From the NCBI GenBank assembly GCA_027459705.1, contig DAIDHM010000006.1:1-41704 (forward strand): a DNA stretch of 41,704 nt. Direction: 5' to 3'. Below, one piece after another: positions 1,605 through 31,545 of this stretch (its first letter is position 1; each line of letters opens with the position of its first letter). The notes below the pieces were generated by a model. It was not told where the DNA came from, searched no databases, and saw only the letters and a program-made list of their open reading frames with translations. Position numbers and translations under genes: made by a program. This DNA comes from Ktedonobacteria bacterium. GTDB lineage: Bacteria; Chloroflexota; Ktedonobacteria; Ktedonobacterales; JACDGC01.

Positions 1605-3305
1605 GTGTCCAATACTACCATGCGGACTGAGGCCGCAGTCCACGCCTATACGGATCTCTATGATGAGAAGCAGCGAACGTTTCTCATCCGCTACCCAACA
1701 TGGCTCTTAACCACCCTGATTATGACGGGTGTGGCCGCCTTTGCTCTGGCGGCTTTTTTGGGGGATGTCAACCATGAACGTGGTCTTCTTCCACCCAGTG
1801 CTCCATTGTTCCTCTGGATCTGTGCTTTGATCATCACGTTGCAATGGTCGATCTTTCGCAATAGGGTCCTCCTGGTTGAACGCTGGGCATCGATCATTAC
1901 GACACTGATAGGTATGGTCCTGGTCGCTATTTATTATTTCGCGGGCCAGCCTAATCTTGGTCAGAATGTCAATAGTATCGTGCAGGGTATTCGCTTCCTT
2001 ACCCAAGATCTCCCAACCCTCGCCATCATCAATTTCGGACTGTTGATCATCTTCTTGGTAGATTCGATTCGGCGTTGGGTATTGTGTGCGCAGGGGAAAT
2101 CTTTCATCCCCCACGTGAACATCGGTTTGGGGATATCCAACACACAAGAGGCGCCAAAGCAGGATTCCCTGCCACCGCTGAACGAGCTGGTCTCCGGCGA
2201 TATGATTGCGGGTGGTATCTTCATCTTCTTTATGGCCCTCTTTTTTACCCCGGCATCCGTCAATTTCTTCCTCAACGGGGTCGTACCGCACGTTACCGCT
2301 GATTGTTCGATCGTTCCGGGGGGATGGGGCCCCTGTGTGCGATTGGGGGGAGCGATATCAAAGCAAGCGGTGGCTTTCACTTCCACCTCCTTGATCAACG
2401 ATCCTCGCCTGCTCTCGTTCTTTGATCTGCTGACGACGCTCGTCTTGCTCATCCCAGGCTTGCTGATCCTGGCGCCCTCAGCGCTGAGTAGCGTCATCGG
2501 TACGAGCCCCGAATTGGGTACCAATACAACACCCGCTCCACGCCAGACGGACTCTGCCAGCACTGGTGAGATCTCGACCAAAGTCAGCGAAGAAGTCATC
2601 GATACGCTCGGCGCTGGCTTGACCCGCCGCCTGCAGTTTTCGTTTGCGATTGCTTTGCGCGATCTGGCTTTGCGGTTCCGTCATGTTGTCTGGCCGCTCT
2701 TGATTATCGCCGGCGTCTTCGGCGCCTCTGCCTACGCTCGCGAGCAAACGCATTACCTCCATCTGGTCCGCGCGGCTGACCAGTGCCATAACCTCGTCAC
2801 ATTTTACACGTGCGTAGGCAATGGCACAAATCTGGGTTTGGTGACGCAACTCTTCGCGCTGATCGGCGCGGCAATCGCCATCGCGGGTATCGTCTTCTCG
2901 GCGGCAGCACTCGCATTCTCCTGGCGTGTGTCCACAAATACCGGGATGTTCTTACTCCTGCTTGGCTTCATCCTGGCGTTGATCATGTGGATCATCTCGC
3001 TGGTGATGTCGCTCATCAATCTCTTCTACTACATTGTCGAGTTGAATGTCACTTCCTCGACGGCGCTGCACATTACGGCATTTCCACAACCGAGTATCAT
3101 CACCGCGCTCTCGCTACTTTTCTTCCTGCGTTATGCCATTCCATGGCTGGTCCGCCGCATTCGCAATAACGGTAAGCCGGTCGGCCCCATGGTGGATTTT
3201 GGGACGATTACTAACGGTCGGCGATTAGGCGCACCGGTAATCAGTCCTACACCGGTGGCACCAACGCTCAAAGATCCACAACTGCCAGATTCTGAAGGCG
3301 TATAA
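1605..3305 (+). CDS. Polytopic membrane protein of unknown function
   Basis: 566 residues starting at GTG, with GGAGG at 1591-1595 nine bases upstream. I count ten or eleven strongly hydrophobic segments spread over the whole length. A soluble hydrophilic stretch (about residues 310-345, rich in T, S and P) sits near the middle, and the last ~45 residues form a polar, proline-rich tail. Two cysteine pairs occur in loops near residues 230-245 and 395-405, possibly on the outer face. I recognise no transporter, kinase or enzyme motif. The gene follows a sensor kinase on the same strand but has its own promoter candidate, so a joint function is not implied. It is a genuine gene of unknown role. 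Confidence 0.85.
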   Translation: MSNTTMRTEAAVHAYTDLYDEKQRTFLIRYPTWLLTTLIMTGVAAFALAAFLGDVNHERGLLPPSAPLFLWICALIITLQWSIFRNRVLLVERWASIITTLIGMVLVAIYYFAGQPNLGQNVNSIVQGIRFLTQDLPTLAIINFGLLIIFLVDSIRRWVLCAQGKSFIPHVNIGLGISNTQEAPKQDSLPPLNELVSGDMIAGGIFIFFMALFFTPASVNFFLNGVVPHVTADCSIVPGGWGPCVRLGGAISKQAVAFTSTSLINDPRLLSFFDLLTTLVLLIPGLLILAPSALSSVIGTSPELGTNTTPAPRQTDSASTGEISTKVSEEVIDTLGAGLTRRLQFSFAIALRDLALRFRHVVWPLLIIAGVFGASAYAREQTHYLHLVRAADQCHNLVTFYTCVGNGTNLGLVTQLFALIGAAIAIAGIVFSAAALAFSWRVSTNTGMFLLLLGFILALIMWIISLVMSLINLFYYIVELNVTSSTALHITAFPQPSIITALSLLFFLRYAIPWLVRRIRNNGKPVGPMVDFGTITNGRRLGAPVISPTPVAPTLKDPQLPDSEGV

Positions 3306-7918: not shown

Positions 7919-9223
7919 TTACTCGATCCAGAGCCCGGTCATATACGCGATAATGAAGAGTCCCTGGAGTAACCATCCCCCATTGACCATCAGGCTATCC
8001 AGCCAGGACCTGGTCCTTGCCCAGCGAGCGGCTAACCAGAAGACGGGTAAGGCTTCGAGGAGATAGCGTGCGGCCGAAGGTAAGACATACGGCAAACCGG
8101 GATCGTTAGCCGAAATCACCAGGTAAAGTAACCCCAGCATATACAGGGTAAATGCCACGGGGATGCGCCGCAGATTCGCTAGCGTCACTCCACCAAATAT
8201 GACGAGCACCGCGAGCGTAATAACCTGGAGGGCCCGATCACTTGAGAGCAACGGTGTACCGGGAAACAGCCGCCTGATGAGTTCGAACCCCGTATACCAT
8301 GGCGTCCAGTTCGCATGGTGCCAGTAGGTGTGTTCGACTTGTAAAAAAACCACAGGATTATTGAAGCGTCGCCAGAGAAAGAGCATATAGAGACCGATTG
8401 CCAGCGGCACCGCGCTCACTACCATGAGCGCGCCAGGGATATCCGCGATTCTGATTCGTTGGCGCCATGTACCCGCACGCCAGGCATCGCGGTCCCACCA
8501 GCCATGTTGGCGACCATATTCCCACGCCAGCGGGAGGATCAGAATGACGGCGGTGATACGGGTCAGGCCAGCGAGGAAAGCCATGAGTGCCGCCGCGCGC
8601 CACGCGCCTCGGCGCATAAAAAAGAGCGAGAAAGCCAGTAGCGCGATCAAGAGGCCTTCGCTATACGGCGCGGTAATGAAAAACGCCCACGGATAAGCAA
8701 ACACGATGCGTAAAAGGCGCAGGCCGCCTGCCGTTTCCTGTTCTTCTTGAGCCGCGAAGACCGCGATGCCCACGCAGGTGCCCAGGGCGATGAGATTAGA
8801 CGCAATCAGCGCTGCCGCGATTGCCTGTGACCCACCCAAAAGCAGATTCACAGCGGCGATGCAGAGCGGGTAGAGTGGAAAAAAAGCCGTTGAAGTCGCG
8901 GTTGTATAGCCCTGCGATGCCTGAAGATACCAGGGGCCGTCCCAAATAAACCAGATGTTCCAGAATGCCGGACTGTTCAATGGTTCGTGTTTGAGTACGG
9001 TTATCAGAAAAAAGGTAAAAAACGCATAGCCTAGCCGGGTGACCACCCAAAAAATCAAGGCTTGCAGCATGACGGATCGCCAATCGATCGGGGTCTGCCG
9101 CGCTGGTTGATCCTGATGTGAGGCCGCGGACGAAAATGCTGGCAGACGATGTAGGGTCACTGGCAACGTATCGTGATAGGCATGAGCAGCGAATGGCGGC
9201 TGATCGCTTTCCAATCGATGCAT
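7919..9223 (-). CDS. PIG-V/Gpi18-like membrane mannosyltransferase family protein
   Basis: 434 residues, about ten hydrophobic segments. After the first membrane segment comes a loop with WDGPWYLQASQGY and then FFPLYP, the acidic and aromatic pattern of GT-C type glycosyltransferases related to PIG-V/Gpi18. Such enzymes use a polyprenyl-phosphate sugar donor and act on the outer face of the membrane. The first ~50 residues are polar. The ATG at 9223 is directly preceded by GAGAAAGG, an unusually tight spacing, so an internal start before the first membrane segment is possible. A strong promoter lies at 9320-9348. Substrate and acceptor are unknown. Confidence 0.85.
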   Translation of the reverse strand: MHRLESDQPPFAAHAYHDTLPVTLHRLPAFSSAASHQDQPARQTPIDWRSVMLQALIFWVVTRLGYAFFTFFLITVLKHEPLNSPAFWNIWFIWDGPWYLQASQGYTTATSTAFFPLYPLCIAAVNLLLGGSQAIAAALIASNLIALGTCVGIAVFAAQEEQETAGGLRLLRIVFAYPWAFFITAPYSEGLLIALLAFSLFFMRRGAWRAAALMAFLAGLTRITAVILILPLAWEYGRQHGWWDRDAWRAGTWRQRIRIADIPGALMVVSAVPLAIGLYMLFLWRRFNNPVVFLQVEHTYWHHANWTPWYTGFELIRRLFPGTPLLSSDRALQVITLAVLVIFGGVTLANLRRIPVAFTLYMLGLLYLVISANDPGLPYVLPSAARYLLEALPVFWLAARWARTRSWLDSLMVNGGWLLQGLFIIAYMTGLWIE

Positions 9224-13724: not shown

Positions 13725-16412
13725 TCAAGATGGTATATCGAGCGCGTGAATAAGTGTTAACATTGGTTGCCCGCTTACTGGATGGTTGATCGGCAAGATC
13801 ATGATATCCGCTACGAAGGGATCTTCGTGCAGCGACATGCCATATGCCGTGCGGAACTGAAATGTCAGACGATCCGCCATGCCCTGAGGTGTGGGTCGGA
13901 GTGCGGTTACGGTCAAAGTCGCTTCGCTCAATCCACCTTCCGCGGGTAACTGTAAGGCGAGACGTTTGATGGGCAGATAAAAAGCCTCGGAATGATACTC
14001 CACTTCGATGATGGCCGTGCTATCTCCAGTATTTTTTCCAGTTGTGTGGCTGGTCGGCCACCGCTGGACGCGTACCAGAATCGAATAGACATGCTTGGGA
14101 AACATCTGGCGCGGCAACACGACCGTACCTGTCGCTGTGACGGTGTGAGCCTGGGGTTGTTGCAAGGCACCCCGCAGTCTGCCTAAAATTTGCTGCAATG
14201 GACGGGAAGGGGTGCGCGTCGTGGGGATGTTCGTTGCCGATACATTGGCAATGATAGTCTGGTCAGCTGGTTCAGCTGACTCACTCGACCCGGTGGCTTC
14301 CGGGGCGATGTTGGCAGATTCGGACGATGCTCTGTCCTCATCCCGTGGGGTCGGGTTTTCCGTGCTGGCGTCAGGTTTCCCGGTATTCGCAAGCGATCCA
14401 AACTGCAACACCCGCGATGGCGGAAGACTGGATTCAGGGACGGGAGTAGCAGTGGTGGGATCAACAGGTCGCTCATCCGACAACCACATTGCCAGTGTTG
14501 ATCCAGCAGAGGTCTGCTCGGTATCCGTGACTGGCTTTGCCGCGCGATCATCAGTGAAACCCTCGTGTGCCGTCGCTAGAGGGTCCCATGTATCGGCAGT
14601 GGCCGAATCAGCGTGCCCAGCTTCGGGGGCAATTTCGGGTTCGCTCGCAGGATCATGCGACGACGCCTCGGCTTGCTCCGCATCCTCCTTGTTATGGGGG
14701 TGGCCCACAAGTATGAATCCTGTCCCCGCCATGGCCGCGCCCAGCGCCCCCGCGAGCAGCGCCGCATCGCGGGGTGGAGCTGGTGGCGCGGTGTAGGCTA
14801 CTCCAGGATCATCGAAGGGAGCGATAGACTCAGGTGTGGCCGCCGAGCCTGGATCATCGAATGGTGTGACCTGAATGGCACTGTGTGCATCCGTTGCGCT
14901 GGATGCCAGGGTCTCCGCGCTAGTCTGACCGATAACGCTGGGAGGGGAAGATTCACCTGCGTCCTCGGCAGTGAGGTCATGGGTGGGCAGCCCGCTTATA
15001 TCGTCGCTGTTTTGCGACTCATCCAGCGATTCGTAATCGAAAAATTCTCCTTGCGTCAATGCTGATTGACGATCGGCATCGAAATCTGTCGCTGAGAGGA
15101 GTCGGAGCGTGAAGAATGTAATGGGGAGACGCTCCTCACCTTCTGGATCAGTCGGCGTTGCGGCGAGGTTATTGGTGGGTTCGGCCTTCTGCCAGTCAAG
15201 CAAACTCAAGGGCGCATCTTCAGAAGCAGGTGAATCAGCTGGTGTGGCTACCGTGGCGGAGTCTGGATCTCCCGCGGCAGTGGTGTTCGTAGCGAGTAGG
15301 GCATTATCAGACACCAGGGCAGGCGCTGCATCCGCGCTCGAGGCGGCGGCCTCTGTGTGAGCGCCGGGGGCAGGCACGGCGTCGTCCACCCCATCGTAAG
15401 CTTTGTCTGTCAGGCGTACGACCGGTCGTGGAGCGGTGGAACTTAATCCTGCCTCCAAGGCATCCACATCGAGCGGCGCAACGGGATCATGATGCAGGAG
15501 ATCTTCGCGCGTCATGACCAGGGTCGGCGGTTCTTCGAGTCGCTCATCATTCGTCAAGATAGGACCGGGAGATCCCGTATTCCCGCGTTCGACTGGTAAA
15601 GCGGCAACCAGCGCCTCGCGGAGCATGGCAATGGTCGGCCAGCGATCGGCGGGATTTTCCGCCAGTCCGCGCATGATGGCATGCACGAGCTCGCGCGACA
15701 GGTCGGGCCGCAGATCCGCCAGCATCTCTTCGCGTGCGGGGTCATCCGGATGCCAGAGCCGACGCGTGAGAAGATAATGTAAGGAAGCGCAGAGCCCATA
15801 GACATCGGAGAGCGTATCGCATTGGTTTTTGCGTAATTCCGGAGCGACGGCTCCTCGCGGCAAGGCGGAAGCCAGTGCCGCGGGCGAGACCAGACCAAGC
15901 GGGATTGCAAATCCCAGGAGTTGCAAGCGATCTTCAGCCGTGACGAAGAGCGATCCGGGGCTGAGATCGCCGATCATCCATTCCGGAAGCCTGGAAGCCA
16001 GGAAAATGATGCCGTCCGCCGCCTGGACCATCCAGCGAATCGCAGAGGTGGGCAGGATCGGTGCGTGTTTATTGCGCATAATTTGTTCGATGGTCTGACC
16101 ACCGCCGATAGCCATCACAAAGAACAGGGTTTCATTCTCGACAAAGATGACCTGTATTGGCGTGGTCATCGTATGTGAATACTCGAGCAATGGCGCCGCA
16201 CGGTTCAGCGAGATAGTTGCCTGTATTTGACCCGGTGTCGAAAACTCGATCAGCGTCATAACCTGTTGGGAAGCCACCTCACGTACACGATACAAAGCCA
16301 GGGCTGGTCCAACCGCGAGCAAAAAATCAATGCGAAATCGCCCCGTGTAGAGGAGAGTGCCAGGGGCAAGTTTTCCAATGGGTCGCAATTCAGCGCCGGG
16401 TGGTGTGAGCAT
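13725..16412 (-). CDS. Large protein with degenerate protein-kinase domain (pseudokinase)
   Basis: 895 residues from ATG 16412, with GAAAGG seven bases upstream; ATG 16427 lacks a site. Residues ~15-275 follow the eukaryote-like kinase fold, but the VAIK Lys position reads VMTLIEF and the DFG motif reads LGFA (~166-169). The catalytic-loop Asp survives (IGDLSPGSLFV, Asp149), as do APE-like VAPEL (189-193), SDVYGL (Asp203) and the C-lobe LAENPADRWPT. This predicts weak or absent phosphotransfer. A ~480-residue acidic, Ala/Ser/Thr/Pro-rich region follows, with a weak hydrophobic stretch at ~548-569. The last ~130 residues look beta-rich (PRQMFPKHVYSILVRVQRWP) and match no family I know. It may scaffold with the DnaJ-WD40 neighbour. 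Confidence 0.85.
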   Translation of the reverse strand: MLTPPGAELRPIGKLAPGTLLYTGRFRIDFLLAVGPALALYRVREVASQQVMTLIEFSTPGQIQATISLNRAAPLLEYSHTMTTPIQVIFVENETLFFVMAIGGGQTIEQIMRNKHAPILPTSAIRWMVQAADGIIFLASRLPEWMIGDLSPGSLFVTAEDRLQLLGFAIPLGLVSPAALASALPRGAVAPELRKNQCDTLSDVYGLCASLHYLLTRRLWHPDDPAREEMLADLRPDLSRELVHAIMRGLAENPADRWPTIAMLREALVAALPVERGNTGSPGPILTNDERLEEPPTLVMTREDLLHHDPVAPLDVDALEAGLSSTAPRPVVRLTDKAYDGVDDAVPAPGAHTEAAASSADAAPALVSDNALLATNTTAAGDPDSATVATPADSPASEDAPLSLLDWQKAEPTNNLAATPTDPEGEERLPITFFTLRLLSATDFDADRQSALTQGEFFDYESLDESQNSDDISGLPTHDLTAEDAGESSPPSVIGQTSAETLASSATDAHSAIQVTPFDDPGSAATPESIAPFDDPGVAYTAPPAPPRDAALLAGALGAAMAGTGFILVGHPHNKEDAEQAEASSHDPASEPEIAPEAGHADSATADTWDPLATAHEGFTDDRAAKPVTDTEQTSAGSTLAMWLSDERPVDPTTATPVPESSLPPSRVLQFGSLANTGKPDASTENPTPRDEDRASSESANIAPEATGSSESAEPADQTIIANVSATNIPTTRTPSRPLQQILGRLRGALQQPQAHTVTATGTVVLPRQMFPKHVYSILVRVQRWPTSHTTGKNTGDSTAIIEVEYHSEAFYLPIKRLALQLPAEGGLSEATLTVTALRPTPQGMADRLTFQFRTAYGMSLHEDPFVADIMILPINHPVSGQPMLTLIHALDIPS

Positions 16413-16427
16413 ATATGAACCTTTCAT

Positions 16428-24294: not shown

Positions 24295-24771
24295 ATGGTA
24301 CGATTGGGCAAGATTGAAGGTGTTGTCGTACAGAACTTAGTACGCTATCCCGACGATCGTGGCTACTTTGAGGAAATGATCCGCGTTACCGATGGATTTT
24401 TTAGCGAGGGATTCGGCCAATTGAGCCATTCCAAGATGTATCCAGGGGTCGTCAAGGCCTGGCATATCCACAAAACACAGGTAGACTGGTGGTATGTCGC
24501 TTTTGGGCGGCTGCGGGTTGGCCTGTATGATACCCGTAAGGACTCAGCGACTTATGGGGTGACGCAGGAAGTTGGCATGGGCGATGATCTGCCGCCAGCG
24601 GTGCTGCGCATTCCTCCGGGAGTTGCCCATGGTTGTCGTGTCCTGGGAGAGACGCCAGCGCATCTCTTCTATGTCACTTCCATTACCTACAATCCCGAAG
24701 AAGAGGGGCGCATCCCCTACGACGATCCTGAGATCGGCTATGACTGGCTGAGTGCCCCGCCGATAAAATGA
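24295..24771 (+). CDS. rfbC: dTDP-4-dehydrorhamnose 3,5-epimerase family protein
   Basis: 158 residues, one cupin (jelly-roll) domain. The enzyme converts dTDP-4-keto-6-deoxyglucose to dTDP-4-keto-L-rhamnose, step three of dTDP-L-rhamnose synthesis. Visible marks are DDRGYFEEMIR (about 20-30), the HxH of KAWHIHKTQ (His57, His59), RIPPGVAHGCRVLG (105-118), YVTSITYNPEEEGRIPYDD and the C-terminal IGYDW. It is shorter than the usual ~180 residues and its motifs are variant, so a related sugar ketoisomerase is possible. Position as first gene of a complete rhamnose set favours RfbC. The ATG has the purine run AGAGAGGGG a few bases upstream. Confidence 0.85.
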   Translation: MVRLGKIEGVVVQNLVRYPDDRGYFEEMIRVTDGFFSEGFGQLSHSKMYPGVVKAWHIHKTQVDWWYVAFGRLRVGLYDTRKDSATYGVTQEVGMGDDLPPAVLRIPPGVAHGCRVLGETPAHLFYVTSITYNPEEEGRIPYDDPEIGYDWLSAPPIK

Positions 24772-24805: not shown

Positions 24806-25942
24806 ATGAAAGGCTTGATTCTCAGCGGAGGCAAGGGCACGCGCCTGCGCCCGTTGACCTATACTCGTGCCAAACAATTGTTGCCGCTGGCCAATAAGCC
24901 TGTTCTGTTTTACGCGATCGAAGCGTTGCTGGACGCTGGCATCAGCCAGATTGGGATTATCGTCGGTGATACCCACGCGGAGATCGAGGCCGCCGTGGGT
25001 ACGCCGGAGGAGGTCGCGGCACGGTGGGGTGAGTCTGTCGCCATCACCTTCATACCGCAGCTGGCCCCGCTGGGCCTGGCGCAAGCTGTCCAGACCGCGC
25101 GCGATTTCATCGGGCGGGACCGCTTTGTGATGTATCTCGGCGATAATCTCATCAGCGAACCATTGCGGCCGTTGGTCACTGAGTTCGCCGCTGAGGATTG
25201 CCCATATCATTGCCGCATCTTGCTGGCCGAGGTGCCAGACCCGACGCAATTCGGCGTCGCGGAAGTCGAAGCGGTCGCGATTCGCGCGGATTTTTCTGAT
25301 GCGCTGACCCCGTTGCGGGTGAAGCGCCTCGTCGAGAAACCCAAGATCCCGCCGAGCAATCTGGCGTTAGTTGGCGTCTATTTCTTCGATCAATCGATAT
25401 TCCTGGCCGCCGACAGTATCGTCCCCTCGCCACGCGGCGAACTGGAGATCACCGACGCGATCCAGTGGTTGCTAGATCACCACTATGAGGTGCATGCGCA
25501 ACAACTGCACGGCTATTGGATTGACACGGGGAAACAAGCCGATATTCTAGACGCGAATCGCCAGATTTTGCAGCAATTGACGCCATCAACCGATCCGACC
25601 GCGACCATCTCCGCCGACTCCACCTTGCATGGTGTGGTCGTCTTGCAAGCAGGTGCGCGCGTCGAAAATAGTGTCATTCGCGGCCCAGCGATCATCGGCG
25701 AGGGTGCGATCATCCGCAATGCCTATGTGGGTCCCTTTACCTCGATCTACCACGACGCCCGGATCGAAGGCAGCGAAGTCGAATACAGTATCGTCCTGGA
25801 ACATTCCTCAATCGTCGATGTGCATGGTCGCGTCGAAGAGAGCCTGATCGGGCGGTACGCCGAGGTCACGAATTCGCCGATTAAGCCACGGGGGCATAAA
25901 TTGATGCTTGGGGATCACAGTCGGGTGGGGTTAATTCCCTGA
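24806..25942 (+). CDS. rfbA: Glucose-1-phosphate thymidylyltransferase, long form
   Basis: 378 residues; ATG 24806 with AAAAGGAA about eight bases upstream. It starts with the nucleotidyltransferase signature GGKGTRLRP (8-16) and continues with KQLLPLANKPV and YLGDNLI. It joins dTTP and glucose-1-phosphate to give dTDP-glucose, the first step of the pathway. Residues ~245-378 form hexapeptide repeats of a left-handed beta helix (GVVVLQAGARVENSVIRGPA and following), as in the long RmlA class of archaea and actinomycetes rather than the ~290-residue enterobacterial form. It is 34 bases after rfbC and cotranscribed. Confidence 0.93.
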   Translation: MKGLILSGGKGTRLRPLTYTRAKQLLPLANKPVLFYAIEALLDAGISQIGIIVGDTHAEIEAAVGTPEEVAARWGESVAITFIPQLAPLGLAQAVQTARDFIGRDRFVMYLGDNLISEPLRPLVTEFAAEDCPYHCRILLAEVPDPTQFGVAEVEAVAIRADFSDALTPLRVKRLVEKPKIPPSNLALVGVYFFDQSIFLAADSIVPSPRGELEITDAIQWLLDHHYEVHAQQLHGYWIDTGKQADILDANRQILQQLTPSTDPTATISADSTLHGVVVLQAGARVENSVIRGPAIIGEGAIIRNAYVGPFTSIYHDARIEGSEVEYSIVLEHSSIVDVHGRVEESLIGRYAEVTNSPIKPRGHKLMLGDHSRVGLIP

Positions 25943-26076: not shown

Positions 26077-27156
26077 GTGGGACAATATTCCGTTGGCAGC
26101 GGCCCTACCGTCTTTGTGACCGGAGGAGCAGGCTTCATTGGCAGCAACTTCGTACATGTGCTGCTGCATACAATGCCAGATGCGCGTGTAGTCGTCTTCG
26201 ATGCGCTCACCTACGCTGGCAATCTGGAAAACCTTGCTGAATTCAACGCGATGTCAGATCACCCAGCTGATCCTCGCTTCACCTTCGTGCGCGGAGATAT
26301 CTGCGATGCAACCGCTGTTCGTGCGGCAATGCGTGGGTGCGACTGGGTCGTCAATTTTGCTGCCGAAACCCATGTGGACCGTTCGATTGTCGATCCGGGC
26401 GCCTTCGTCCGTACCGATGTCGAAGGGACCTATACGTTGCTGGAGGCCGCTCGCGAATTTGCTATCAGTCGCTTCGTGCAGATTAGCACCGACGAGGTCT
26501 ATGGGAATGCCGAGGCGCCCGATGGCACCAGCCGGCCATCCATTGAGACCGATGCGCTGAAGCCGCTCTCCCCTTATGCGGCCAGCAAAGCCGGAGCGGA
26601 TCGTCTGGCATTCTCGTACTGGGCAACGTATCAATTGCCCGTGGTCGTCACGCGCTGTTCAAATAACTACGGCCCTTATCAGTATCCGGAGAAACAGTTA
26701 CCGCTCTTCATCACCAATGCGCTGGCCGATCGCGCGATTCCGATCTATGGTGATGGTCGCAATACGCGCGACTGGATCCATGTCGAGGACCACTGCTCCG
26801 CGCTGTTGCAGATTCTGACAGCGCCCGCTGCCGAGGTGGTAGGGGAAGTCTTCAACATTGGCGCGGCAGAGGAGCGGAGCATCCTGGAGAATGCCCAAAC
26901 GATTCTGCGCATCCTCGGCAAGCCCGAGTCATTGCTGACCTTTGTGCCAGACCGTCTGGGACATGTTCGCCGCCATGCCGTCGACTCAACGAAGCTGCAA
27001 CAACAGTTGGGGTGGCGCCCGCAGCACGCCTATGACACCGGACTCGCGGAGACCATTGCCTGGTATCGTGACCATGCCGTGTGGCTGGAGCATGTGTTGG
27101 CGCGACGCGACAATTTTCTGGATGGGGCCCTCCAATTGGGAGCGAAGCAACAGTGA
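26077..27156 (+). CDS. rfbB: dTDP-glucose 4,6-dehydratase
   Basis: 359 residues from GTG 26077, with GAGAGGAA at 26062-26069. An extended SDR enzyme with NAD-binding GGAGFIGSN (16-24), AAETHVDRS, the catalytic STDEVYG segment and the YxxxK pair Tyr167/Lys171 (YAASK), followed by SNNYGPYQYPEKQLPLFI and RDWIHVEDHC. It converts dTDP-glucose to dTDP-4-keto-6-deoxyglucose, step two. A 134-base gap without structure separates it from rfbA. Its stop overlaps the next gene's start. Confidence 0.96.
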   Translation: MGQYSVGSGPTVFVTGGAGFIGSNFVHVLLHTMPDARVVVFDALTYAGNLENLAEFNAMSDHPADPRFTFVRGDICDATAVRAAMRGCDWVVNFAAETHVDRSIVDPGAFVRTDVEGTYTLLEAAREFAISRFVQISTDEVYGNAEAPDGTSRPSIETDALKPLSPYAASKAGADRLAFSYWATYQLPVVVTRCSNNYGPYQYPEKQLPLFITNALADRAIPIYGDGRNTRDWIHVEDHCSALLQILTAPAAEVVGEVFNIGAAEERSILENAQTILRILGKPESLLTFVPDRLGHVRRHAVDSTKLQQQLGWRPQHAYDTGLAETIAWYRDHAVWLEHVLARRDNFLDGALQLGAKQQ

Positions 27157-28076
27157 AACGGGTTTGGATTACTGGCGCGGGTGGAGTGGTGGGGACCAAA
27201 TTAGTGGAGCAAGCCCTCGCCAGCGGAGACTTTGACCATATCTACGCGCTTACTCATGGCTTGCCCGCACAGCCCAACACGGACCAGGTGACCTGGATGC
27301 ACCTGGCCATTGAAGATGAGGCGGCCCTCACGGACCTGGCCGCACACTCGCCTCCCCAGGTCATTATTAATCCCGCCGCGATGACCAACGTCGATCGTTG
27401 CGAATCCCACCATGAGGAAGCATCCCGCGCCAATGCCATTGGGCCGCGCATGTTGGCGCGCGTGGCGCGCGCGCATGGGGCGCATCTGATACATGTTTCG
27501 ACGGATTACGTGTTCCCGGGTGATGTTGCGCATCCCGGGCCTTACAGCGAAGACGCGACGCCGCGGCCGATCAACTATTATGGGCAATCCAAGCTGGATG
27601 GCGAAGGAGCAGTGCGGACCGAAATGTCTGATGACGCGCCGTATGCCATCGTCAGGACCGCGCTCGTCTATGGCCTCATCCCTGGCGGCCGCATGAATTT
27701 CGTCACATGGTTGGTTCGTGAACTTCAGGCCGGGCGGCGTGTCCGAATCGTCCGCGACCAATTCAATACGCCTACCCTCGCTGATGATTTGGCTGCTTTG
27801 CTCCTCTGGCAGGCAGCGCATGGGACGACCGGCATCTATCATGCGGCCGGACCTGACCTCATTGGCAGGCACGATTGGGCTTTGCGGATCAGCGCGCACT
27901 TCCAATTAGACAGCAGTTTGATCGATTGGGTGTCTACTGCTGAGCTCGGTCAGCCCGCCCCCCGACCACTGCGCAGTGGTCTGACATGTGCCCGCTGGGA
28001 AGCCGATCAACTGCTAGGAGCGCCAAAACCTCACCCCATCGAAGCTGGACTCGCGACAATTGCCTGGGATGCGTGA
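27153..28076 (+). CDS. rfbD: dTDP-4-dehydrorhamnose reductase
   Basis: 307 residues. The start GTG at 27153 overlaps the rfbB stop as GTGA (27153-27156), and GGGAGCG at 27138-27144 is a suitable ribosome-binding site, so translation is coupled; a longer frame from 27081 is rejected. Rossmann motif GAGGVVG (8-14), HVSTDYVFPG (114-123) and YxxxK at Tyr143/Lys147 (YGQSK) mark the SDR reductase that uses NAD(P)H to make dTDP-L-rhamnose, step four. The C-terminal half has the usual PRPLRSGL substrate-end motif. This completes the pathway in one operon. Confidence 0.95.
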   Translation: MKRVWITGAGGVVGTKLVEQALASGDFDHIYALTHGLPAQPNTDQVTWMHLAIEDEAALTDLAAHSPPQVIINPAAMTNVDRCESHHEEASRANAIGPRMLARVARAHGAHLIHVSTDYVFPGDVAHPGPYSEDATPRPINYYGQSKLDGEGAVRTEMSDDAPYAIVRTALVYGLIPGGRMNFVTWLVRELQAGRRVRIVRDQFNTPTLADDLAALLLWQAAHGTTGIYHAAGPDLIGRHDWALRISAHFQLDSSLIDWVSTAELGQPAPRPLRSGLTCARWEADQLLGAPKPHPIEAGLATIAWDA

Positions 28077-28233: not shown

Positions 28234-31200
28234 ATGAAAACACAGGATCAAATGGCTGGGGCGCCGCCGGACCACCTGGTTGGTCGTCAGGTGGCGCCGC
28301 GTTTCGACTTCCTCTACAATGACACTTATTCTCCGATGGATCCGCCTACCCTACCAACGCCAGGGCAACCTGGTGCCGCTGAGTGGCGAGGCACTGATGG
28401 GGCAGCTGAGGTGGCCGACCGGTCAGACTGGCGTGTCTTCGGCGCGTATGCCCTCATCGTCGTAGCGATCCTCTTCGCATCCTTTGCCCGTGGGATCGCC
28501 GGACTCAAACCCAGTGAAATTGCCCTGGTCTGCTTTGTGATCGCCCTCATCGCACGGCGTATCTACTTGCGCGATGGCTCTTTTGGGCTGACCACCATCG
28601 ATGCCGGGTTCGCGCTCTTTATGCTGACTGGCACGATCTTACCGTTGACGACACTCGATGTCCGTGGCATCGCGCTGACCAGTGATAATGCGCGCGCGCT
28701 ATTAGGTCCGATTGAATATTACCTGTGGTATCGCTGCATTCTGGAAGCACTGCCCGTTCCGCGACACCTGCCCGGTTTAACGCGTCTACTCTTAATTGTG
28801 CTCACGTGTCTCAGCGCTATAGGGGTTCTGCAGATCCTCCATGTCCCAGGTGTGTTACCGGTTTTGACCAGGTATTTTCCAACCTATGAGACACTGCAAA
28901 GCGTCAGTGTGCACCGTGCTACCTCGCTTGTGGGTGGTTGGGAAGTGCTCGCGGCGCTGGCCGCTTATGCCATCATGTTGATCCATCAATTGCAGACAGA
29001 TGCGGTGGCACATCATCTCTTTGGACGCCGTGGGAACCTCTGGCTCATCGGGATGCTCGCAATCAATGCTTTCGCCTTGGTAGCAACTTTCAGCGCGGCG
29101 GGCTATATCGCAGTGGCATCTGGTTATGTATGTGCCTGGTTTCTGAATAGGAAGCATGGTGGCGCGACGCCGATCCACGCATCAAATCCGCGGAGACTGA
29201 CGCTCCCACGGCTGCGCACGATGGTCCTGACACTGGGGATAGGGGTGCTCGCGACCCTTATAACCCTTCCTGCGTTGTTACAGCGCTTGCAATTGCAATA
29301 TGGCGCAGGACATACCCATACGCTCATTCCCCAGACCTGGTTAGAACGATTCTCTCACTGGCAAATTGTCACTTCGGTGGCCTTCATCAATCCTCAGACA
29401 GCGCTCTTTGGCGTAAGTCCAGCGTTTACCTATCCTGTCAGCGTCTTTGGGAGCACCGAGAGCCTCTATCTGCTCGTGATCTACCGTGGAGGGATACTCT
29501 ACCTCTGCGCATTGCTGATCTTCATCGTTCTGGTTATGCGCGCGACCTGGTTGGCGCGCCAGCGCGCCACTGGTTTCCAGCGAACGTTTCTCACAGCCGC
29601 CTGGATAATTGTACTCATCAATTTTGTCCTCGGACTCTTCGACGCCCATTTTTTTGATGCGGGAGAATCGCAGTTTTTGCTGACCATCATCGCGGCAAGC
29701 GCTGCGGCCGTACCAGGCTGGCACAGCGCTGTGGTGGGCCACGCGGCGGCACCGGGCCACCCGACGTCAATGCGCTCACACCACCAACCAGGTATATTTG
29801 AGGAATTGCCCATACGGTCGCGATGGGTTGCGCGTGGCGCGTTGAGCATAGGCATGCTTGCCACGTCGGTGCTGGTTGTCGCCTCGTATCGATTGAATAA
29901 GCAAATGACGCCCAGTCCTGTACCATTGGCAATCGGCCTGCCCTATGACCCCACCGGCACAATTTGGCAAGAAAATCAACAAATCGGCACAGCGCAATGG
30001 CAATTGTCTACTGGGGCGAATACTACTCAGCTCGAAGGCTATGCCGGGGCTGTCTCCGCGCTGCCAGGCGAGATCGTCCCTCTGTACCTCAGCGCCCAAC
30101 ACTCCATGTTTGTCGATATCCAGGTTTATCGCATGGGTTGGTATAATGGGCAGGGTGGTCATCTTTTCGCCAACATATCCCATGTCGCGGTCAGTGCGCA
30201 GGGAACTTACCAGGCGGCAACGAATACCCTCAAAGGTTGTACGAGTTGTCAGATTGATCCTCTCACGCACAGTATTGACGCCCATTGGCAACCAACGTAT
30301 AGCTTGCGAATCGGCCAGAACTGGCCTACGGGGGTCTATCTCATCAAACTCTCCGGGGGAGCCACCGGGCTCAGCGCGCTGCTGGGCCAGCCTGACCAAT
30401 CGTTCATCCCGCTGGTTGTTCGCCAACCAACTGACGCCATCGCGCATCCCCAACAACATGTCCTGGTCGTGGTACCCGTCATGACCTATGCGGCGGAAAA
30501 CATCTGGGGCGGCGCGAATCTCTCAACCAATGTGCCAGCTGATCGCTTCGCGCAGGTCACACAACCGGGCCGCGCGACCGAGGCCTCGTTCAACCGCCCC
30601 TTTGTCGACTCGGCCGGGGCAGGCGAATTGCTGAATTTTGATCTCCACGCGGTGCGCTGGCTGGAACGCGGTGGCTATGATCTGAGCTACACCACTGATC
30701 TCGATCTGGCGGAGCATCCTGAATATCTCGCCGGTAACGCAGCGGTCGTATTCACGGGAAGCAGTAGTTATTGGACCGCTGGTCTGTATGATGGACTCAC
30801 CAACGCGGCGAACAACGGAATTTCCTTACTATTTCTCAGCGCGGCCAACGGCATCTGGCAGGCCCGACTTGGCCCGGACGCCTCAGGGAACCCAGATCGC
30901 CTGGTCATCTGCTATAAAGTGCGTTCGGCACCGACAACCGGCGGATCCATTGTTGATCCCACGCAGGCGCTAGCGCGCGATCCCCTCTATGCGACTCAGC
31001 CACAATTCGTGACGGCCCAATGGCGCGACCCCGTGTTGCATCGACCAGAAAATAGTCTGCTGGGGGCCATGGCGGGCGGGAGCCTGGCGCCTGTCATGCT
31101 CGCCAACGGGGAATTCACCCGCCTACCACAACGCGAATGGGTGGTAAAACCTCAGGGACCGCTCGGGATCATCGAGACGACCAATACCTTCCTGATGCCC

Positions 31201-31545
31201 GGCGAGCAAGTTCAGGGGGCGTTCATCGGGTTGGGATATGATAGTGTCTATGCCAATTCGGCTATGCCAGCGGGGCTGACCGTGATGGGGTCGGTCGCCA
31301 TTCCACAGCATATCGTGCCAGACGCTGCCATCAGCGACCAGATGGCGGATGCGGCCACGGTCTTTTATCGCACGCGCGCTGGTGGTTACGTCTTTGACGC
31401 GGGATCAATGACCTGGAGCTGGGCGTTAGATGAAATGACCTTCCAGGGAGCTGACTTGCCGAATGCCCAATTGGGGCAACAGAGCATCTCCGTCATGACG
31501 GGTAATTTTCTCGTCACTATCCTGCCGCCGAGTGCCGCCAGATAG
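28234..31545 (+). CDS. O-antigen ligase/polymerase-like membrane protein fused to a dimethylformamidase-beta-like domain
   Basis: 1103 residues, ATG with GGAAGGA at 28216-28222. After a polar ~65-residue tail, about 12 hydrophobic segments fill residues 65-552, with a larger loop near 370-400 (QTWLERFSHWQIV), like Wzy/WaaL O-antigen polymerases and ligases. The last hydrophobic segment is near 535-553. Residues ~560-1103 form a large domain, probably outside, similar to the beta subunit C-terminal domain of N,N-dimethylformamidase: YRMGWYNGQGGHL, MTYAAENIWGG, YDLSYTTDLDLAEHPEYLAG and VVFTGSSSYWT. Compared with the pattern I remember (QAYNxWGG), a tyrosine is replaced by Glu, so amidase activity is doubtful. 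It follows the rhamnose operon by 157 bases and probably acts in surface glycopolymer assembly. Confidence 0.85.
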   Translation: MKTQDQMAGAPPDHLVGRQVAPRFDFLYNDTYSPMDPPTLPTPGQPGAAEWRGTDGAAEVADRSDWRVFGAYALIVVAILFASFARGIAGLKPSEIALVCFVIALIARRIYLRDGSFGLTTIDAGFALFMLTGTILPLTTLDVRGIALTSDNARALLGPIEYYLWYRCILEALPVPRHLPGLTRLLLIVLTCLSAIGVLQILHVPGVLPVLTRYFPTYETLQSVSVHRATSLVGGWEVLAALAAYAIMLIHQLQTDAVAHHLFGRRGNLWLIGMLAINAFALVATFSAAGYIAVASGYVCAWFLNRKHGGATPIHASNPRRLTLPRLRTMVLTLGIGVLATLITLPALLQRLQLQYGAGHTHTLIPQTWLERFSHWQIVTSVAFINPQTALFGVSPAFTYPVSVFGSTESLYLLVIYRGGILYLCALLIFIVLVMRATWLARQRATGFQRTFLTAAWIIVLINFVLGLFDAHFFDAGESQFLLTIIAASAAAVPGWHSAVVGHAAAPGHPTSMRSHHQPGIFEELPIRSRWVARGALSIGMLATSVLVVASYRLNKQMTPSPVPLAIGLPYDPTGTIWQENQQIGTAQWQLSTGANTTQLEGYAGAVSALPGEIVPLYLSAQHSMFVDIQVYRMGWYNGQGGHLFANISHVAVSAQGTYQAATNTLKGCTSCQIDPLTHSIDAHWQPTYSLRIGQNWPTGVYLIKLSGGATGLSALLGQPDQSFIPLVVRQPTDAIAHPQQHVLVVVPVMTYAAENIWGGANLSTNVPADRFAQVTQPGRATEASFNRPFVDSAGAGELLNFDLHAVRWLERGGYDLSYTTDLDLAEHPEYLAGNAAVVFTGSSSYWTAGLYDGLTNAANNGISLLFLSAANGIWQARLGPDASGNPDRLVICYKVRSAPTTGGSIVDPTQALARDPLYATQPQFVTAQWRDPVLHRPENSLLGAMAGGSLAPVMLANGEFTRLPQREWVVKPQGPLGIIETTNTFLMPGEQVQGAFIGLGYDSVYANSAMPAGLTVMGSVAIPQHIVPDAAISDQMADAATVFYRTRAGGYVFDAGSMTWSWALDEMTFQGADLPNAQLGQQSISVMTGNFLVTILPPSAAR

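Follow-up and report, generated by a model that had tools for sequence, protein, structure and literature searches.

A single gene in the window, meaning the whole 41,704-nucleotide stretch analysed here, is predicted by sequence comparison to fuse a membrane half, a highly divergent member of the Wzy_C/O-antigen-ligase group, with a dimethylformamidase (DMFase)-like outer domain that has lost its iron site. We put at about even the chance that its product is a lipid-linked-glycan polymerase or ligase (Wzy/WaaL/RodA-like) with a pseudo-amidase module that binds or positions the glycan or its acceptor. The gene occupies positions 28234-31545 on the forward strand as one uninterrupted frame of 1103 codons; going by its relatives, the true start may be Met7 at 28252. 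The membrane half (residues 66-552, 28429-29889, +) has 12 helices and a linking thirteenth, while the outer domain (residues 553-1103, 29890-31542, +) comprises an Ig-like region and a DMFase domain-III-like region. A preliminary description of this DNA had likewise read the frame as a Wzy/WaaL-type membrane half joined to such a domain, and the architecture, for which it knew of no precedent, does appear to be undescribed.

The fusion gene lies directly behind a complete set of dTDP-L-rhamnose genes on the same strand, as previously proposed. These encode an RmlC-type dTDP-4-dehydrorhamnose 3,5-epimerase (24295-24771, +), a long-type glucose-1-phosphate thymidylyltransferase (rmlA, 24806-25942, +), dTDP-glucose 4,6-dehydratase (rmlB, 26077-27156, +; the sole rmlB found in the window genome, an incomplete draft of 4.6 Mb in 245 contigs) and dTDP-4-dehydrorhamnose reductase (rmlD, 27081-28076, +). 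A pattern scan, which is weak evidence, found no terminator-like site on the coding strand of the 157 bp gap between rmlD and the fusion gene. This operon suggests a rhamnose-containing product. We also considered a conserved link to rhamnose synthesis and rejected it: RmlD of the window has no match in two fusion-bearing genomes (G002 and G004), a third fusion-bearing relative carries rmlD on a different contig from its fusion, and other fusions adjoin genes for GDP-mannose dehydratase or UDP-sugar dehydrogenase. The adjacency to rml genes, which the preliminary description had proposed to survey across genomes, is therefore local to the window genome. Elsewhere in the window, long frames of 900, 434 and 566 aa at 13725-16427 (-), 7919-9223 (-) and 1605-3305 (+) have no Pfam match at 1e-8.

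The fusion is recurrent. Six full-length homologous fusions were found in four genomes, all from the family-level group to which the window belongs: the window gene, a paralogue encoded elsewhere in the same genome (contig C53; 47% identity across residues 57-1099), one each in G002 and G004, and two in G003. A further copy in G005, cut by a contig end, shares 87% identity with the domain of a G003 fusion. An assembly chimera is ruled out by these six homologues, which include a paralogue from the same genome, and the join is thus real rather than a sequencing-derived merger of separate genes, the outcome that was earlier named as a possible refutation. Searches of 400 Chloroflexota genomes with the membrane half and of 400 with the DMFA2_C family revealed, in the loci read, no fusion from outside the window's family, and the same was true of 47 genomes of the class; a search of plasmids with the membrane half returned nothing. 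In a tree of 77 DMFA2_C domains, the six complete fusions form one clade with support of 99/98, and it is therefore likely, on this phylogeny, that the fusion arose once. One G003 copy (L040, contig C5) has an in-frame stop near its C-terminal end and may be slightly shortened. Weak Wzy_C matches in multi-helix frames of 999 and 1245 aa on contigs C234 and C229 of the window's genome (L056 and L057) could represent further fusions.

The outer half was identified by profile and fold comparisons. Pfam DMFA2_C (PF20254) matches residues 629-1066 (30118-31431) with an E-value of 1.6e-68 and 232 bits against a cut-off of 27, covering profile positions 2-369 of 374; residues ~562-1100 make up a full DMFA2_C (dimethylformamidase-beta) ectodomain. 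A profile built from 36 relatives retrieved N-acetyl-(R)-beta-phenylalanine acylase (3e-24) and dimethylformamidase (9e-21) from the PDB, with Tyr399 and Glu521 of DMFase in register. Tyr440 aligns on the Tyr of WGG.SLY, and is also in register with DMFase-like Chloroflexota proteins that have a long N-terminal part (L142, L145). A structural model of the window ectodomain (17 sequences, pLDDT 73, pTM 0.84) recovered the acylase (8huy) and DMFase (6lvb) at 1e-19 to 3e-16 in a fold search, the next, unrelated hit being at 3e-5. In DMFase the Ig-like region is split by the pentraxin domain, whereas here it is continuous with domain III; the pentraxin-fold insert (domain II) is absent, DMFase residues 74-337 having no counterpart. 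The earlier assignment of a ~540-residue dimethylformamidase-beta-like half, to be abandoned if no significant family match appeared, is borne out by these results. Several other arrangements of this domain were observed. It lies at the C-terminus of ~1000 aa proteins whose ~500 aa N-terminal part has no Pfam family (L150:4112-7096, L151:3616-6648), and single-helix proteins of 940-1660 aa (L022, L041, L148 and others) carry ASH/Cep192-like Ig repeats, DUF4082 or carbohydrate-binding-like domains after it. Relatives also occur on contigs of the IMG/VR viral collection (L086, L178-L188), where they may be prophage cargo or misclassified host DNA.

In DMFase, iron is bound by Tyr399, Tyr440 and Glu521, His519 is also needed, and the mutants Y440A, E521A and H519A are each inactive (PMC7686228). 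Alignment with DMFase and its relatives places Glu755 (30496-30498, +) at Tyr399, Ser764 (30523-30525, +) at Tyr440, and Ser843-Ser844-Ser845 (30760-30768, +) at the His-Asp-Glu that contains His519 and Glu521. The window protein has therefore lost all four known site residues (Y399E, Y440S, H519S, E521S), as well as a fifth conserved Glu, that of the GYE motif, which is replaced by Gly1001 (31234-31236, +). The preliminary description was right about the change of one Tyr to Glu, but its estimate of the loss was too small. Among the 71 unfused relatives, 70 retain all five residues; the exception (L011 from G041) lost three of them (Tyr399, Glu521 and the GYE Glu) independently. We compared the window protein with 47 columns whose conservation reaches 95% or more across 66 unfused proteins, a set that excludes L011 and four distant sequences. 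The five columns it has lost are exactly the five site columns (hypergeometric P = 6.5e-7; the GYE Glu joined the site set after inspection, and restricting that set to the four residues established in DMFase gives a P of about 3e-5), and the other 42 are intact. The iron site was thus lost specifically and not through general decay.

Site loss is graded across the fusions, each complete copy having lost at least two of the five residues. The G002 and G004 fusions lack Tyr399 and the GYE Glu and keep Tyr440, His519 and Glu521; those of G003 retain Tyr440 as their sole site residue; and the C53 paralogue has Asp, Asp, Pro and Pro at the four DMFase positions. Retention of enzymatic activity by the ectodomain at an altered site, based on a different metal or on serine at SSSYW, would fit the three residues kept in G002 and G004 and the retained fold of the model. 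We nevertheless regard this as quite improbable, as the window protein has no remaining ligand set, loss of Tyr440, Glu521 or His519 singly abolishes DMFase activity (PMC7686228), and the replacements vary from fusion to fusion (E, D, F, A, G for Tyr399) without any new conserved set. With the whole active site erased, trimming of an amide is unlikely for the window copy. Of the earlier suggestions that the outer domain recognises, trims or attaches a polymer, amide trimming is thus disfavoured, while a binding or altered role, also suggested then, is supported.

Both halves of the fusion evolve under constraint. By a counting method, dN/dS is 0.26 for the C half and 0.27 for the N half between the two G003 fusions, both of which lack the Tyr399/His519/Glu521 set, and 0.25 in each half between the G002 and G004 fusions; these two pairs are the least diverged, and synonymous sites are near saturation in all others. 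These values bear on whether the fused domain is a neutral leftover, decaying without function or needed just for folding or topology. The increase in site loss along the tree, from two residues to all five, and the in-frame stop near the end of one G003 copy would agree with such decay, which we consider very improbable given a dN/dS of about 0.26 in a pair already without the site and the retention by the window copy of 42 of the 47 conserved columns. The outer domain appears to have lost its chemistry stepwise and yet stayed under selection; its most likely role is thus that of a module for binding, positioning or recruitment within a glycan polymerase or ligase.

Kinship of the membrane half emerges through its relatives. 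A Pfam search with the window's N half gave no match, and the best direct Wzy_C (PF04932) score among the homologous fusions, 18.7 bits for a G003 copy, lies in the right place and below the cut-off of 31.7. A profile of the six membrane halves retrieved unfused relatives across the phylum, two of which exceed the Wzy_C cut-off, both being parts of Wzy_C-flippase fusions. In profile-profile comparisons with Wzy_C proteins collected separately from these genomes, six membrane-half sequences gave a probability of 89.9 (E 1.7e-6) and fourteen gave 94.8 (E 4.9e-8), while the matched control, MurJ flippases of the same genomes, gave 0.2 and 0.08 respectively; the membrane-half profile found nothing in the PDB. 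Overall, these comparisons identify the membrane half as a very divergent member of the Wzy_C/O-antigen-ligase group. That it is instead another polytopic glycosyltransferase or a transporter, and not a polymerase or ligase of undecaprenyl-diphosphate (Und-PP)-linked glycans, is improbable in our estimate. Direct similarity to Wzy_C stays below the cut-off and the catalytic His is missing, but homology reaches proteins above that cut-off transitively, Wzy_C-flippase fusions are among the relatives, and the MurJ control was negative.

The predicted topology comprises 12 membrane helices, as previously counted, and a thirteenth (529-552) that runs into the outer domain. A full-length AlphaFold2 model (five sequences) had a pLDDT of 39.5 and served as a topology guide through its helix boundaries only. 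Five columns are invariant in all fourteen members of the subfamily, including Arg228 (28915-28917, +) in an outward loop and Arg372 (29347-29349, +) in a predicted short helix of the large outward loop (351-419). Glu409 (29458-29460, +) occupies the position of the catalytic His of WaaL in the motif HN.YL; every one of the 14 subfamily members has Glu or Asp there, and the His is kept in two canonical Wzy_C proteins examined here. The preliminary assignment to a Wzy/WaaL type is thus upheld through the relatives and the profile-profile comparison, with the qualification that this subfamily has an acid in place of the catalytic His. Given an N-terminus inside the cell, hydropathy, charge and the helix boundaries of the low-confidence model would place Arg228, Arg372, Glu409 and the entire C half outside. 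An Arg on a short outer helix is a common element of GT-C enzymes that use Und-PP substrates, and Asp262 of RodA has been described as analogous to His338 of WaaL (PMC10449877). Because of that analogy, we infer that the membrane half could be catalytic with an acid as its base.

These features can be assembled into a putative mechanism for a glycan polymerase or ligase with a binding module. The membrane half would act as an extracytoplasmic GT-C polymerase or ligase that uses undecaprenyl-diphosphate-linked substrates, Arg228 and Arg372 would hold the lipid-linked glycan, and Glu409 would serve as general base, like Asp262 of RodA where WaaL has His. Helix 13 would carry the former iron amidohydrolase domain, now a pseudoenzyme, outside the cell, where it would bind or position a glycan, probably N-acylated, or an acceptor without cleaving amides. 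With its active site erased, the enzyme has seemingly become an integral component of a sugar-polymer machine, serving in handling or as a scaffold.

Genomic context points to surface glycans for fusions and unfused relatives alike. Four of the six fusions adjoin nucleotide-sugar or glycosyltransferase genes. The neighbours of the C53 fusion encode GDP-mannose dehydratase, an epimerase, two GT4 enzymes, a canonical Wzy_C protein, a hexapeptide transferase and a flippase, and the presence of this Wzy_C protein means that the fusion need not be the polymerase. The G002 and G004 fusions adjoin GT4 and UDP-sugar dehydrogenase genes, and the two G003 fusions have no recognisable sugar genes among the few neighbours tested. 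Two unfused single-helix DMFA2_C copies are also encoded in the window genome; C218 adjoins GT4 and UDP-sugar dehydrogenase genes, and C160 has no sugar genes among the neighbours tested. Among the 115 nearest neighbours of 20 unfused genes, polysaccharide deacetylase occurs 9 times, Wzy_C and MurJ 6 times each and glycosyltransferase families 4-5 times each, counts that are not independent because the clusters share ancestry; among 120 control genes from the same genomes, those families fall outside the top list, with at most one occurrence each. A cluster recurring in Ktedonobacterales contains an intact single-helix DMFA2_C protein, a Wzz-kinase, UDP-sugar dehydrogenase, a MurJ-Wzy_C protein, two polysaccharide deacetylases and two ATP-grasp proteins. 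DMFA2_C relatives are also found amid aminotransferase, acyltransferase, export and pyruvyl-transferase genes on Rhizobium plasmids, and near a polysaccharide tyrosine autokinase and GT4 in the cyanobacterium Gloeothece. Six other Chloroflexota genomes encode DMFA2_C together with an unfused membrane-half relative, and in three of them the two lie within about 35 kb on one contig. A search of open-licence papers, the last of its queries ranked by other terms, returned no paper linking this family to polysaccharides. Taken with the two solved amidases, the genomic context suggests that the family's most likely activity is that of an amidohydrolase on exported glycans.

The intact copies also bear on an alternative in which the dead domain pairs with them and docks an amidase on the polymerase or ligase, such that the nascent glycan is N-deacylated as it emerges. 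Large subunits of DMFase dimerise, with Phe693 of one in the pocket of the other (PMC7686228), intact single-helix copies are present in 4 of 4 genomes with complete fusions, and some occupy similar clusters, such as C218, whose neighbours resemble those of the G002 and G004 fusions. We regard such docking as unlikely, though less so than the alternatives above. A broader evolutionary account, which we offer tentatively and rate somewhat below even, is that the native role of DMFA2_C is amide chemistry on exported N-acylated polysaccharides, and that in this Chloroflexota family a fusion joined one copy to a RodA-like Wzy relative that uses an acid, after which the copy lost its chemistry and became a glycan-reading or amidase-recruiting subunit of the polymerase or ligase.

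Comparison with known systems helps to define what is new in the proposed glycan polymerase or ligase. The window protein resembles the DMFase large subunit (6lvb) and the acylase (8huy) in its full-length DMFA2_C match, its predicted fold and an Ig-like region before the alpha/beta domain; it differs in having neither the iron-site residues nor the pentraxin insert, and in being membrane-tethered and fused to a putative glycan enzyme. With Wzy, WaaL and the O-linking oligosaccharyltransferase PglS of the Wzy_C superfamily it shares a 13-helix layout, a large outward loop and two conserved Arg, with the R...W and (H/E)..YL motifs in register. However, it scores under the Pfam cut-off, has Glu for the catalytic His and carries an added outer domain of 550 residues. 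It shares with the RodA/SEDS peptidoglycan polymerases an acid where WaaL has its catalytic His (Asp262 in RodA; PMC10449877) and, by analogy, a GT-C fold, with no sequence match seen here. The MurJ-Wzy_C proteins of Ktedonobacterales likewise combine a Wzy_C module with another envelope function and adjoin an unfused DMFA2_C gene, but their partner is a flippase rather than an ectodomain, and their DMFA2_C is separate and intact. These are single proteins of 960-985 aa with 18-22 helices, found in the recurring cluster (L120-L123, L126 and L127, e.g. L123:13764-16706); other Chloroflexota have the reverse order, a Wzy_C-like half followed by a flippase, in proteins of ~920 aa (L071:1237-4023, L073:1333-4077).

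If correct, this interpretation would provide a plausible natural role, surface polysaccharide processing as opposed to solvent degradation, for the dimethylformamidase-beta family, which is large and for the most part uncharacterised. The fusion lineage supplies successive stages in the conversion of an intact enzyme into a complete pseudoenzyme after one gene fusion. Finally, the membrane halves suggest that a subfamily of Wzy/WaaL-like proteins carries an acid where the catalytic His would be, a feature that would connect the mechanisms of O-antigen and SEDS enzymes.
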